From: Candidatus Gemmiger stercoripullorum
GTDB lineage: Bacteria; Bacillota; Clostridia; Oscillospirales; Ruminococcaceae
NCBI GenBank assembly: GCA_019119365.1
Contig: DWXD01000008.1
Coordinates: forward strand, 1 to 44,679
Direction of reading: 5' to 3'
Length of the DNA: 44,679 bases
Under the pieces are notes generated by a model. That model was not told where the DNA came from and made no database searches. It saw nothing but the letters and a program-made list of their open reading frames with translations. Positions 4,299 through 35,966 of the stretch are shown in pieces (the first letter of the stretch is position 1; every line of letters begins with the position of its first letter). Made by a program: the position numbers and the translations under genes.

Positions 4299-5501
4299 TT
4301 AGCGTCCGCCGCCGCCTTTTGCAACCCGTGTACCGTTTTGACACAAAGGTTTTACAACTGCGAAACAGGCAAGGCCCCCGGCCGCGCAGGCGACGGCCGC
4401 CGCATGGCGCGCGGGCAGCGGCAGCAGCTGGCTGCCTGCATAGCTCAAAAGGCTGCCCGCGCTCATGCCGAGCGCGAGAAAGCCGTAGTTGACCCCGGCG
4501 TGGCGCAGGCCGAACAGGTCGGTGTTGAAAGCGGGCTGCACGGCCGCGCCGCCGGAATAGAAAAAGGTCAGCAGCGCGTAAGCCGCCGCAAAGGCCCAGC
4601 CCCCGGCCCACGCAAACAGCAGCGAACCGGCCCCAAGCCCCAGGTAGACGCCGTACAAAACCGGCTTGCGGCCCAGGCGGTCGCTGGCGGCCGGGCAGAG
4701 CAGCCGCCCGGCCGCCGAGGAGGCAGAGCCCAGCACGACGCAGAGCGGGGCGAAGGCTTCCGGCAGGCCGCGGTTGGCGGCCAGGGTGAGGATGTCCGGG
4801 CTGAACAGCAGCACAGGCGGCGCGGCCAACGCCACCCCCGCCGCGCACAGCTTATACTGCGGCGTGCGCAGCATCGCGCGCGGCGGCAGGCCGCCCGCCG
4901 GGGCGGGCACACTCAGGGCGGCGGGCGGGTTGTGCAAAACGGCGGCCCCGGCCCCGCAGACGGCGAGCACGACCGCGCCCAGCGCCGCAAAGCAGACGCG
5001 CATGCCCCAGCGCCCGCCGACGCCGCGCACAAACAGCGTGAGGAACGCGCCCGAAAGCCCCATTGCCGCGCCGGTGACGCCGGTGGCCAGCCCCTTGCGC
5101 CCGGCGTACCATTTCTGCACGCAGGCCAGCACGGCCGGGGCCAGGAACGCGCTGCCCACCCCGGCCGGGACGCTGTAGACAAGCAGAAACAGCGGCGCGT
5201 TGCCCGCCGGGGCGAGCGCGGCCAGCAAAAACGCCGCGCCCAGCAGCCCCGTGCCAACACCGGCCGCACAGCGCGGACCGCGCGCGTCCTGCACCAAGCC
5301 GCCGATGGCGCAGCCGACGCCGTACCCGGCCACAAGCAGCGCAAAGGCCATGGTCGCCTGCGCGCGGGTAAAGCCGTATTCCTGCATGACCGGGCGCTGG
5401 AACACGCCCCAGGCGGCCGGGATGCCGGTGAGCAGCTGGACGGCCGCCCCGGCGGCGAGGATGCCGGGGGCGCGGCCCGGTTGGTTTTGCTTTTTTGTCA
5501 T
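4299..5501 (-). CDS. MFS transporter, OFA (oxalate/formate antiporter)-like
   Basis: Twelve-helix major facilitator protein of 400 residues. The N-terminal segment GIPAAWGVFQRPVMQEYGFTRAQ and the A-motif-like loop GLVQDARGPR after helix 2 resemble the OFA group of monocarboxylate/oxalate-formate carriers. A second half-motif (DRLGRKPVL) follows helix 8. The substrate cannot be told from the sequence. The start MTKKQNQPGR has GGAAAGGAAG upstream. Its leader contains a 150 bp dispersed repeat (5527-5676) that ends only a few bases before the ribosome binding site. It probably forms a two-gene unit with the downstream ligase-like gene. Confidence 0.85.
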   Translation of the reverse strand: MTKKQNQPGRAPGILAAGAAVQLLTGIPAAWGVFQRPVMQEYGFTRAQATMAFALLVAGYGVGCAIGGLVQDARGPRCAAGVGTGLLGAAFLLAALAPAGNAPLFLLVYSVPAGVGSAFLAPAVLACVQKWYAGRKGLATGVTGAAMGLSGAFLTLFVRGVGGRWGMRVCFAALGAVVLAVCGAGAAVLHNPPAALSVPAPAGGLPPRAMLRTPQYKLCAAGVALAAPPVLLFSPDILTLAANRGLPEAFAPLCVVLGSASSAAGRLLCPAASDRLGRKPVLYGVYLGLGAGSLLFAWAGGWAFAAAYALLTFFYSGGAAVQPAFNTDLFGLRHAGVNYGFLALGMSAGSLLSYAGSQLLPLPARHAAAVACAAGGLACFAVVKPLCQNGTRVAKGGGGR

Positions 5502-5526
5502 GGACGGCAGGCTTCCTTTCCGCTCA

Positions 5527-5676
5527 GGGTGTATCCGATCAATCAAAAGTGCTGAAAAGTTCGCTAAAAGACAGCGAATGCGAGCACGAAACCGCAGGAA
5601 TGCTTTGTGAATTCCAAGGTTTTGTAACGCAGCAGACACCGCTTTTCAAGCGCTGGGGAATTTTCAGCCACACCCC
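5527..5676 (-). repeat. Leader-associated repeat, copy A (MITE-like or structured RNA)
   Basis: Read on the minus strand this 150 bp stretch aligns along most of its length with copy B at 7147-7318. Shared blocks include CTGCTGCGTTAC, AACCTTGGAAT, ATTCCTGCGGTT and CACTTTTGATTGATC. The ends are imperfect inverted repeats related to GGGTGTATCTGA. Internal hairpins recur in both copies (5597-5615 and 5562-5576). It lies between a possible promoter (5699-5720) and the ribosome binding site of the MFS gene, in the same orientation relative to its gene as copy B. Confidence 0.85.
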
Positions 5677-5698
5677 GGGTTTGCTTTGTCATTTCGCT

Positions 5699-5721
5699 AT
5701 AGTATGGCCCGTTTTGGTTGA
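5699..5721 (-). promoter_or_regulatory. Weak candidate promoter of the MFS gene
   Basis: Minus-strand TACTAT (5704-5699) has only a poor -35 at suboptimal spacing, overlapping the hisS -35 region on the other strand. If used, the transcript would start just before repeat copy A and carry it as leader. Confidence 0.3.
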
Positions 5722-5747
5722 CAAAACCGCCGCGCGGGGGCTATCAT
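5718..5747 (+). promoter_or_regulatory. Sigma-A promoter of hisS
   Basis: TTGACA (5718-5723), an 18-base spacer and TATCAT (5742-5747) precede the hisS ATG by 42 bases. The short leader leaves no room for a T-box element. Confidence 0.75.
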
Positions 5748-5789
5748 AGGAGCGGACCATAAAAACGACGGGAAGGAGACCCCTTTGCC

Positions 5790-7040
5790 ATGAAAACACA
5801 ACCCTTGAAGGGCATGCGCGACCTGCTGCCGAAAGAGCAGGCCCTGCGCGATTATATCCAGGGCGAGATCCTGGCGACCTACCGCGCAGCCGGGTTCCAG
5901 CGCATTTCGACGCCGATCCTGGAAGACCTGGAAAACCTGGACAAGAGCGACGGCGGCGACAACCTGAACCTGATCTTTAAGGTTCTCAAGCGCGGCGAAA
6001 AGCTGGCCGCGGCGCTGCGCAGCGGCGACGAGGGCGCGCTGGCCGACATGGGCCTGCGCTATGACCTGACGCTGCCGCTTTCGCGCTATTATGCGGCCAA
6101 CCGCGCCGTGCTGCCGCACCCGTTCAAGGTCATCCAGACCGACCGCGTCTACCGCGCCGAGCGCCCGCAGAAGGGCCGCCTGCGCGAGTTCGTGCAGTGC
6201 GACATCGACATCCTGGGCGACGAGAGCCCCAACGCCGAGGTCGAGCTGATCGACGTGACGGCGCGCGCTTTGCTGCGCATCGGCTTTACCGGTTTCACGG
6301 TCAACCTCAACGACCGGCGCATCCTGCGCGCGATGCTGTCCGAAATGGGCTTTGCGGCCGATACGCTGGATTCTGTCTGCGTCAGCTTTGACAAGCTGGA
6401 CAAGATCGGCGCGGCGGGCGTGCGGGCCGAGCTGGAGGAAAAAGGCTGCCCGGCCGCGGCCGTGGCGGCGCTGGATGCGTTTTTGACCGGCGGGGATTTC
6501 AGCCTGGACGCCGTGACCGCGGCCTGCGGGCCGGAGGGCGCGGCGCTGGCGGCCGACCTGCGCTATGTGCTGACTCAGGCCGAAAAGCTCGCCGCCGGGC
6601 GGTTCCAGGTGGCCTACTGCCCGAGCCTGGTGCGCGGGCAGGGGTATTATACCGGCATGGTGTTTGAGGTGACCTGCCCGCAGTTTTCCGGCGCGGTGGC
6701 GGGCGGTGGCCGCTATGACGAGATGGTGGGCAAGTTCATTGGCCAGAAGGTGCCCGCCGTCGGCTTCTCGATCGGGTTCGAGCGCGTGTGCGGCATTTTG
6801 CTGGAGCAGGGGTACGCTATCCCCGGCGCCAAAAAGCAGCTGGCGCTGCTCTATCTGCCCGAAGCCGATTTTGCCGAAGTGCTGGCCAAGGCCGAGCGCC
6901 TGCGCGGGAAGTACGACGTGACCGTGCTGCCGCAGGCCCGCAAGCTGGGCAAGCAGTTCGGCGCGCTGGAAGCCGCCGGGTTCGGCGCGGTGGCCTTTGC
7001 GGACAACGAGGACATCAAGCTGCTGGGGCAAAAAGGATAA
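5790..7040 (+). CDS. hisS: Histidyl-tRNA synthetase (histidine--tRNA ligase)
   Basis: Class II aminoacyl-tRNA synthetase charging tRNA-His with histidine, 416 residues. Motif 1 region GFQRISTP (35-42), motif 2 FKVIQTDRVYRAERPQKGR (112-130) with FVQCDIDILG, the histidine-specific loop LVRGQGYYTG (280-289), GGGRYDEMVG (305-314) and motif 3 VGFSIGFERV (324-333) are all visible. Two features differ from standard HisS: the loop usually reads RGLDYYT, and the C-terminal anticodon-binding domain stops shortly after FADNEDIKLLG, about 20-25 residues early. The other option is HisZ, the regulatory paralogue of ATP phosphoribosyltransferase, but no histidine biosynthesis genes are near and all ATP-binding motifs are kept. 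AAGGAGA supports the ATG. It has its own promoter and terminator. Confidence 0.88.
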   Translation: MKTQPLKGMRDLLPKEQALRDYIQGEILATYRAAGFQRISTPILEDLENLDKSDGGDNLNLIFKVLKRGEKLAAALRSGDEGALADMGLRYDLTLPLSRYYAANRAVLPHPFKVIQTDRVYRAERPQKGRLREFVQCDIDILGDESPNAEVELIDVTARALLRIGFTGFTVNLNDRRILRAMLSEMGFAADTLDSVCVSFDKLDKIGAAGVRAELEEKGCPAAAVAALDAFLTGGDFSLDAVTAACGPEGAALAADLRYVLTQAEKLAAGRFQVAYCPSLVRGQGYYTGMVFEVTCPQFSGAVAGGGRYDEMVGKFIGQKVPAVGFSIGFERVCGILLEQGYAIPGAKKQLALLYLPEADFAEVLAKAERLRGKYDVTVLPQARKLGKQFGALEAAGFGAVAFADNEDIKLLGQKG

Positions 7041-7046
7041 AATTTT

Positions 7047-7074
7047 GCCGGGGAGCGTCTCCCCGGCTTTTTGT
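7047..7074 (+). terminator. hisS rho-independent terminator
   Basis: A perfect stem GCCGGGGAG/CTCCCCGGC with a 3-base loop followed by TTTTTGTGTTT, starting seven bases after the hisS stop codon. Confidence 0.9.
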
Positions 7075-7130
7075 GTTTCCCTCCCCTGCCGTTTTGCCAC
7101 CGTTTTGTAATGGCGCGCGCGGCGGCGGTG

Positions 7131-7139
7131 TGGTATACT
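7131..7139 (+). promoter_or_regulatory. Extended -10 promoter of the DUF4349 lipoprotein gene
   Basis: TGGTATACT is a perfect extended -10 element (TG-n-TATACT). No good -35 is visible at 17 bases. The predicted start (about 7146) is exactly at the left end of repeat copy B, so the repeat would form the whole 5' leader. Confidence 0.55.
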
Positions 7140-7146
7140 GGAATTA

Positions 7147-7318
7147 GGGTGTATCTGAAAAATCCCCAGCACTGTCTCATTCTACTAAAAAGCAGCGTCT
7201 GCTGCGTTACGAAACCTTGGAATACATCAAGTATTCCTGCGGTTCCGTGCCTTGCATCCGCTACTTCTTAGCGAATTCCTTTTCAGCTTTGGGCACTTTT
7301 GATTGATCAGATACCCCC
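7147..7318 (+). repeat. Leader-associated repeat, copy B (MITE-like or structured RNA)
   Basis: This 172 bp element has 12 bp terminal inverted repeats (GGGTGTATCTGA and, reversed, GGGGGTATCTGA, 11 of 12 matching). It is flanked on both sides by TA (7145-7146 and 7319-7320), as expected for a TA target duplication. Internal hairpins include GGAATAC/GTATTCC (7219-7237), extended by GAAACC/GGTTCC, and CGCTA/TAGCG (7259-7273). The right end is two bases from the ribosome binding site of the following gene. Copy A lies in inverted orientation on the other side of hisS. Confidence 0.88.
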
Positions 7319-7339
7319 TAGGAAAGGAGCGTGCAAAGG

Positions 7340-8338
7340 ATGAAACGGCAGCCTTTATGGAAGAAATTGACCGCCCTGGCCGCGGCGCTGGCCCTGACGG
7401 CGGCGCTGGCCGGGTGCGGGTCGGCCGGCGGCGGGAGCGACGCCGCCCCCGGAGAAACGGCGGCGACCGAGAGCTTCAGCATGGACAACGCCGCGCTGGC
7501 CGCCGCCGACGGCGGGGGCGCCGCCACGCTGACGCCGCAGGCGACCGGCGAGAGCGCGCGCAAGATCATTTACAACGCCGACCTCTCGCTGGAATCGACC
7601 GACTTTGACGCGGCCCGCACGGCCCTGACCGACGCGGTCGAGGCACACGGCGGCTACATTTCGTATTCCGACCTTTCCGGCAGCGCCGAGGATCAGGACC
7701 GCTACAGCCATTACACCGTGCGCATCCCGGCCGACAGCTACCGCAACTTTCTGGAGGCCGTGAGCGGTGCGGCCAACGTGCTGAGCGTGAGCGAGAGCGC
7801 CGAGGACATCACCTCCGAGTACATCGACGTGGAGGCGCGCATCGCCTCGCTGGAAAACCAGCGCAGCCGCCTGAACGAGCTGGCCGACACGGCCGAGACG
7901 ACGGCCGACCTGTTGGAGATCGAGAGCCAGCTTTCGGACGTACAGTACCAGCTGGAAAGCTACACCCGGCAGCGCAGCTGGATGGACGACCAGGTGCAGT
8001 ATTCGACCGTGGATATCCGGCTCAGCGAGGTCAAGACGCTGACGCCCGAGACGCCGGTCGGTTTTGCCGAAGAAGCGGGCCGGGCTTTCCTGGACGGCTG
8101 GGAAGCGTTCAGCCTGTTCATCAAGGGCCTTGTGCTGGGGCTGATCTATGCGTGGCCCGCGGTGCTGATCGTGGTGATCGTCGTGATCGTGGTCGTGCGC
8201 ACCCACCCCGCCCGCCAGGCACGGCGCGCAGCGCGCCTGGCGCAGCGCACTGCGCCCCCGCCCAAGCCCGCCGCCCCCGGCGCGAAGGACGCCCCGCAGC
8301 CCCCGGCGCCGGAAGATACGCCCAAACCCAAATACTGA
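7340..8338 (+). CDS. DUF4349 domain lipoprotein with C-terminal membrane segment
   Basis: Exported lipoprotein of 332 residues. The N terminus (MKRQPLWKKL, hydrophobic stretch, lipobox LAGC with Cys26) predicts signal peptidase II processing. A low-complexity Ala/Gly/Asp linker is followed by a DUF4349 domain (about 74-245): KIIYNADLSLES, HGGYISYSDLSG, YTVRIPADSYRNFLEAV, EYIDVEARIASLENQRSRL and a predicted coiled coil. A C-terminal transmembrane helix rich in Val/Ile (about 262-285) and a basic Pro/Ala-rich cytoplasmic tail follow. The molecular function of the family is not known. ATG 7340 is preferred over GTG 7331 because GGAAAGGAG ends ten bases before the ATG but only one base before the GTG. 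The next genes encode an ECF sigma factor and its partner, suggesting an envelope-stress theme. Confidence 0.85.
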   Translation: MKRQPLWKKLTALAAALALTAALAGCGSAGGGSDAAPGETAATESFSMDNAALAAADGGGAATLTPQATGESARKIIYNADLSLESTDFDAARTALTDAVEAHGGYISYSDLSGSAEDQDRYSHYTVRIPADSYRNFLEAVSGAANVLSVSESAEDITSEYIDVEARIASLENQRSRLNELADTAETTADLLEIESQLSDVQYQLESYTRQRSWMDDQVQYSTVDIRLSEVKTLTPETPVGFAEEAGRAFLDGWEAFSLFIKGLVLGLIYAWPAVLIVVIVVIVVVRTHPARQARRAARLAQRTAPPPKPAAPGAKDAPQPPAPEDTPKPKY

Positions 8339-35918: not shown

Positions 35919-35966
35919 GGCGTATCTGATACATTGAAAGTGCCGGGAATTTTTCAGATACACCCC
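35919..35966 (-). repeat. Deletion derivative of the leader-associated repeat (copy C)
   Basis: These 48 bp keep only the two ends of copies A and B: read on the minus strand, GGGGTGTATCTGAAAAATTC at one end and ATCAGATACGCC at the other, with almost the whole middle missing. It begins directly after the methyltransferase stop codon. Such internally deleted copies are typical of miniature transposable elements. Confidence 0.7.

Follow-up and report, generated by a model that had tools for sequence, protein, structure and literature searches.

A structured core shared with repeats of distant bacteria lies within two MITE copies beside hisS in Candidatus Gemmiger stercoripullorum

The 44,679-nucleotide stretch of Candidatus Gemmiger stercoripullorum DNA analysed here as a whole (the window; contig DWXD01000008.1 of assembly GCA_019119365.1) contains hisS, coding for histidyl-tRNA synthetase, between genes for an MFS_1 transporter and a DUF4349 protein. 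Two related repeats, copies A and B, lie on either side of hisS, an arrangement proposed in an earlier sequence-only reading that holds up, with the MFS_1 and DUF4349 neighbours confirmed by Pfam. The features are listed below; R2 is a model of the core strand that is described further on.

5527..5675, minus strand: MITE copy A, 149 bp, shortened (74% DNA match to B; aligned with the family)
5527..5538, plus strand: terminal inverted repeat of A, transporter-gene side (terminal-repeat comparison)
5570..5643, plus strand: structured core of A, core strand (R2 52.8 bits, E=1.6e-14)
5664..5675, minus strand: terminal inverted repeat of A, hisS side, diverged (family alignment)
7134..7139, plus strand: TATACT, probable -10 of the DUF4349 gene, upstream of B
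7145..7146, no strand: TA target copy left of B (the second TA copy is 7319-7320)
7147..7318, plus strand: MITE copy B, 172 bp, with a 10-bp insertion relative to the family (DNA match, alignment)
7147..7158, plus strand: left terminal inverted repeat of B (terminal-repeat comparison)
7191..7265, minus strand: structured core of B, core strand (R2 88.1 bits, E=5.3e-26, B itself being part of the R2 training alignment)
7307..7318, minus strand: right terminal inverted repeat of B (terminal-repeat comparison)
35919..35965, minus strand: 47-bp core-less derivative of the A/B element (DNA match, matching ends)

Copies A and B are homologous, as had been claimed, and belong to one family, a dispersed element of ~162 bp with 23 DNA matches in its own genome; several of these matches end at contig edges, and the copy number may therefore be underestimated by the assembly. 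An alignment of 14 copies (172 columns) has the terminal repeats GGGTGTATCTGA and TCAGATACACCC and a conserved middle. The element is thus short, multi-copy and bounded by terminal inverted repeats, as MITEs are, and it has a target-site duplication of TA at B and none at A, with 3-bp target copies at its relatives in R. flavefaciens. The transposon origin suggested from terminal repeats and TA flanks stands for B, which has TA on both sides; A has changed terminal repeats, but it is without a TA duplication. Core-less derivatives of ~47 bp (window 35919-35965; also L290, L291 and L292) have the same ends and differ from one another, and the one in the window lies between convergent genes.

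Both sites appear empty in related genomes. Among 21 genomes of the genus, hisS was recovered in 20 including this one, leaving 19 congeners for comparison; the transporter gene is beside hisS in all 19 and the DUF4349 gene in 15. The core pattern was undetected at the A and B sites of all 19 congeners, and four of these, when aligned, run through both sites without insertions. Because of the inverted ends, the TA flanking B and the lack of the core at both places in 19/19 congeners, A and B are best regarded as MITE copies, and a MITE origin is supported. We note that A and B are inverted around hisS and resemble the ends of a composite transposon; since hisS adjoins the transporter gene in every congener, hisS has not moved.

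B starts 7 bases past the TATACT at 7134-7139, and the exact sequence TATACTGG is found at a comparable distance, 97 to 109 bases past hisS, in five of the 19 congeners; a consensus promoter scan did not include the TATACT site upstream of B in its reports. Taken together, the TATACT spacing, the congener TATACTGG matches and a terminator-like stem after hisS indicate that B is probably within the DUF4349 leader. The 3′ ends of A and B (in the orientation of B) stop a few bases short of a purine-rich, ribosome-binding-like stretch of the next gene, in agreement with the sequence-only reading.

Most of the folded copies exceed dinucleotide shuffles on each strand, and intact copies do so by a wide margin (B has z -5.7 and -8.8 on the two strands, and the best copy -12.8); A is weakly folded relative to such shuffles (z -2.3 and -3.1), and the partial copy C52 folds no better than they do. 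Two hairpins had been described in A and B. The GGAAT/ATTCC stem is real and corresponds to the apical helix of the core, and the CGCT-A/G ... T-AGCG stem is not a conserved local structure, its fourth pair being broken in seven of 14 aligned rows; in the consensus the partner of this CGCT/AGCG arm is the left arm of a long hairpin. The fold had also been placed on the ‘sense’ strand of the downstream genes, and it is the opposite strand that is the more stable in 13 of the 14 folded copies.

Three further repeats in the same genome match B only in its middle, with other stems and ends and identical unpaired letters, and in an alignment of both kinds of repeat there are two-sided changes at 10 of 29 predicted pairs. 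This shared core lies on the strand opposite to B's orientation and has, on the core strand, the layout outer stem, AAGGC, 8-bp stem, GCA, 7-bp stem with a 5-base loop, AA, 8-bp stem, AACGCA, outer stem. A model built from the alignment (R1) locates cores in 21 of 119 genomes of the same taxonomic family, this one included, and these sit in elements with other ends. The register of the core is fixed in many members. In a set of 32 core sequences, found by the structure model and chosen by the analyst, 25 of 28 core pairs have two-sided changes, and 89.9% of cells are paired, compared with 59.5% when shuffled and 33 to 48% when slid. The loops of this model-found set are near-invariant, and the stems are rewritten yet still pair. 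That loops hold from clostridia to proteobacteria as the stems are rewritten suggests that something reads the fold of the core.

Since these 32 sequences came from a structure model and personal choice, an independent set was needed, and we searched genome contigs with a pattern that fixed 21 letters in loops and junctions and left the other stem positions free. The pattern has at least 123 matches in at least 119 stretches, and approximately one match is expected by chance in the collection (our own arithmetic, assuming equal base frequencies). Among the matches listed there are 67 non-redundant elements, in which the free stem positions of P2 are paired in 79.3% of cases (31.0% shuffled) and those of P1 in 69.9% (30.3% shuffled), with 58 distinct P2 heptamers. 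We regard the shared core as very likely to be real. Mismatches in the pattern-found elements, again among the matches listed, are predominantly G-U rather than A-C when read on the core strand, both in P1 (87 to 24) and in P2 (27 to 10), and P3 has no strand asymmetry (31 to 26). A fold of one strand seems to be favoured, and a mutational strand bias could contribute to, or be the source of, the G-U excess in P1.

The core is spread widely but patchily. Model R2, the core-strand model, was trained on genomes of the same taxonomic family and without Neisseria. It matches 20 of 398 genomes of the same phylum and, at an E-value of 1e-4 or lower, 89 of 398 Pseudomonadota genomes (up to 12 places scored per genome, the phylum name being inferred from the Polaromonas centre of the sample); most sampled genomes are without the core. 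It also matches all 20 named genomes that were chosen for matching the 21-letter pattern, with 3 to 119 copies in each. Named records with the core include isolates of clostridia, Paenibacillus, and alpha-, beta- and gammaproteobacteria, and the cases in Campylobacterota, Desulfuromonadales and Bacteroidota are from metagenome-assembled genomes, where contamination is possible. Among the 123 matches listed, a terminal-repeat search located ends for 64 elements; the ends vary between groups, and 36 of the 64 elements are 147–171 bp long and 20 are 98–120 bp. No common gene was found beside Pseudomonadota loci among 30 proteins at 12 loci (12 of the 30 had no Pfam match, and the frames of some were wrong).

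Some of these loci have unusual arrangements. One example is Silvimonas terrae (L132:1824-2091), where there are three tandem cores at a spacing of ~106 bases, and pairs of cores in inverted orientation ~105–115 bases apart are present in L306 (G679) and L097 (G141). CCCGAAGGG or something similar comes after the core in several Pseudomonadota loci. A known Rfam family can be set aside for the 21 stretches scanned, as window positions 5000-8000 and 20 further loci gave no match to Rfam 15 at gathering score and weak sub-threshold matches only.

Among short bacterial repeats, REP and REPIN elements have a GTAG foot and a Y1 transposase partner, RAYT. Among the known systems closest to the core is the Correia element of Neisseria (CREE, NEMIS), a gonococcal copy of which is matched by R2 at 31.5 bits (E=1.6e-7). 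This copy is 106 bp long with inverted ends, and it contains CAAGGC, CCGCAG, CAAGG and AACGC in the same order as in the core, although its second stem pairs poorly, unlike that of the core. Correia ends are TATAGTGGATTAA, whereas those of B are GGGTGTATCTGA; B and Correia share the core model and are related, and B is not a member of the Correia family. (Two N. gonorrhoeae records, L259 and L260, are each ~2.17 Mb and filed as plasmids; their size suggests that they are chromosomes.) The available portion of one account of Correia reports target duplication, RNase III, IHF and leader insertion, and terms the mobilising mechanism undetermined (PMC2649163). The element is described as the first prokaryotic MITE in the accessible part of a review of bacterial MITEs (Minnick 2024, PMC10969869), which are likewise short and multi-copy with inverted ends, target duplication and hairpin transcripts; that part of the review has no mention of a covarying fixed-loop core common to families with different ends. 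A survey of stem-loop repeats recovered the central 46-bp core of NEMIS, and the available part of it does not link that core to other genera (Cozzuto et al. 2008, PMC2267715). Among the titles and abstract openings listed in searches of the open-licence literature, none describes the shared core.

A second comparison is with the ERIC repeat of enterobacteria. Inspected by eye, one E. coli copy has AAGGC and GAACGCAG around a hairpin (L323:190-270), and its intervening stem is longer than in the core; R2 did not match this one copy, with a best score near the repeat of 3.4 bits. The ERIC copy is a possible distant relative. More broadly, the presence of a matching core in distant bacteria, including the Neisseria repeat, points to an old shared signal.

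The 3-bp target copies in R. flavefaciens (e.g. TTA, TCA), together with the TA at B, suggest ordinary cut-and-paste transposition in trans; no transposase with matching ends was found in the own genome, in R. flavefaciens FD-1 or at the 100 of 198 Oscillibacter sp. 1-3 places listed, in what are draft assemblies. Among elements with the same ends, core-length copies account for 22 of the 27 found in R. flavefaciens FD-1 and for 30 of 31 in Oscillibacter sp. 1-3 (with 100 of 198 places listed). The five R. flavefaciens elements outside this class comprise four in which the core has been partly or wholly lost and one composite holding a single core. Core-less derivatives with intact ends and target copies do exist, and they may have lost the core after insertion; the excess of core-length copies could also result from recent expansion. 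The prevalence of core-length copies, together with the weak fold of A, suggests that selection acts on the element for the core and not on host genes. In R. flavefaciens FD-1, elements in L285 and L288 are apparently nested in, or composed of, other core-bearing elements.

The explanation we favour, with a probability of about 0.5, is that A and B arose by insertion of a non-autonomous MITE with an ancient core inside, and that the core is a signal favouring the spread or tolerance of the element. A transposase acting in trans would have moved the MITE to both sites, and its interior would belong to an ancient core that MITEs carry in many bacteria. The core would fold as one particular single strand, with an outer stem, an asymmetric loop AAGGC/AACGCA, an 8-bp stem, a loop GCA/AA and a 7-bp apical stem. 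The data show directly the family and its insertions, stems that covary around near-invariant loops, the wide distribution of the core, its significant match to a Correia element and the strand asymmetry of mismatches. We infer that the core would serve as a cis-acting signal read by a widely conserved factor when one strand is single, as RNA or single-stranded DNA, and that individual insertions such as A would then decay. Transcription of B into the DUF4349 leader would probably be a by-product of where it landed.

The sequence-only reading was a different one, namely that the element has turned, or tends to turn, into a structured mRNA leader. A and B do each precede a gene in the same sense, and among 15 copies of the own genome, core-bearing or partial, whose two neighbours are known there are eight in divergent gaps, seven in co-directional gaps and none in convergent gaps; of two short derivatives in this genome, one is in a convergent gap. 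The shared orientation of A and B does not extend to the family, however, where 14 long copies, scored against the nearest gene starting beside each and taking B's sense as sense, include seven sense, four antisense and three undecided (genes called with a codon model in this high-GC genome, with Pfam support for nine of 10 proteins). Among the 123 matches listed from elsewhere, 68 were classified by the gap they occupy, a further 54 being at a locus edge or far from genes; 46 of the gaps are co-directional, 16 convergent and 6 divergent, and one element is inside a gene. The Pfam families adjoining tested copies are unrelated, A is shortened and weakly folded, and orthologous leader insertions are absent, 19/19 congeners being without both. 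Neither the fixed orientation nor the shared downstream function typical of structured leaders and riboswitches was found. That reading had named random orientation combined with a lack of compensatory changes as the outcome that would tell against it; orientation is indeed mixed, yet compensatory changes are abundant. As the structural constraint also falls on the complementary strand, and shows up across mobile families and not at individual genes, the structured-leader claim is unsupported. We rejected a domesticated leader on the basis of mixed orientation, unrelated genes and the weakly folded A, and consider a domesticated or preferential leader very unlikely; a leader position such as A and B have is common without being a rule.

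A role in RNA is less easily dismissed, although we think it doubtful. In this case the core would act in read-through RNA, its hairpin being a processing or stability element, such as a substrate for RNase III, that makes insertion less disruptive and is kept by selection. The probable leader position of B and the G-U excess on one strand are in its favour, and according to the available part of PMC2649163 RNase III binds CREE transcripts and cleaves or protects them, and one CREE separates the mtrCDE genes from their promoter. Against it, read-through of A and B yields the complement of the core strand, and in the 46 co-directional gaps among the matches listed from other taxa the core strand is antisense in 30 and sense in 16. 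RNase III is not known to require fixed loop letters. It is quite improbable that an enzyme recognises the folded single-stranded core itself and transposes it as a hairpin, the differing ends forming simply the hairpin base. Such a mechanism would accommodate the constancy of the core where ends differ between groups, as well as the strand asymmetry of mismatches, but target copies of 2–3 bp fit ordinary cut-and-paste enzymes and are kept by core-less derivatives. Nor is there a clear replication-strand bias in Polaromonas, where 50 places divide 31 to 19 (p 0.12), 30 to 20 (p 0.20) or 33 to 17 (p 0.03) under three assumed turning points, and a second genome has none at 18 places. Neither the replication strand nor the orientation to transcripts distinguishes RNA from single-stranded DNA as the acting form. 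Template switching is a source of compensatory changes in palindromes, and plain palindromes could be kept paired in this way, producing a fold without selection; we give this the least weight of all, as template switching would pair the loops too, yet the unpaired loop letters are near-invariant where stems are wholly different, the loop conservation being that of the model-found set, since the loop letters of the pattern set were fixed by the search. Of the explanations weighed, a role of the core in the spread of the element is the most likely, at about even odds.

The interiors of MITEs are commonly regarded as leftover sequence. What is ordinary at this locus is a MITE of which one copy probably sits in a leader, and what is notable is the core. 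More tentatively, the core may represent an ancient pan-bacterial structured nucleic acid in a class of its own, a folded single strand read by a conserved host factor and carried by short mobile elements with many different transposase ends, of which Correia would be one branch and ERIC perhaps a distant one. If read as a fold, the shared core would link the Correia element with those matched in 89 of the 398 Pseudomonadota genomes sampled, and it makes an old question testable, namely what binds the core, and whether the element spreads without it.
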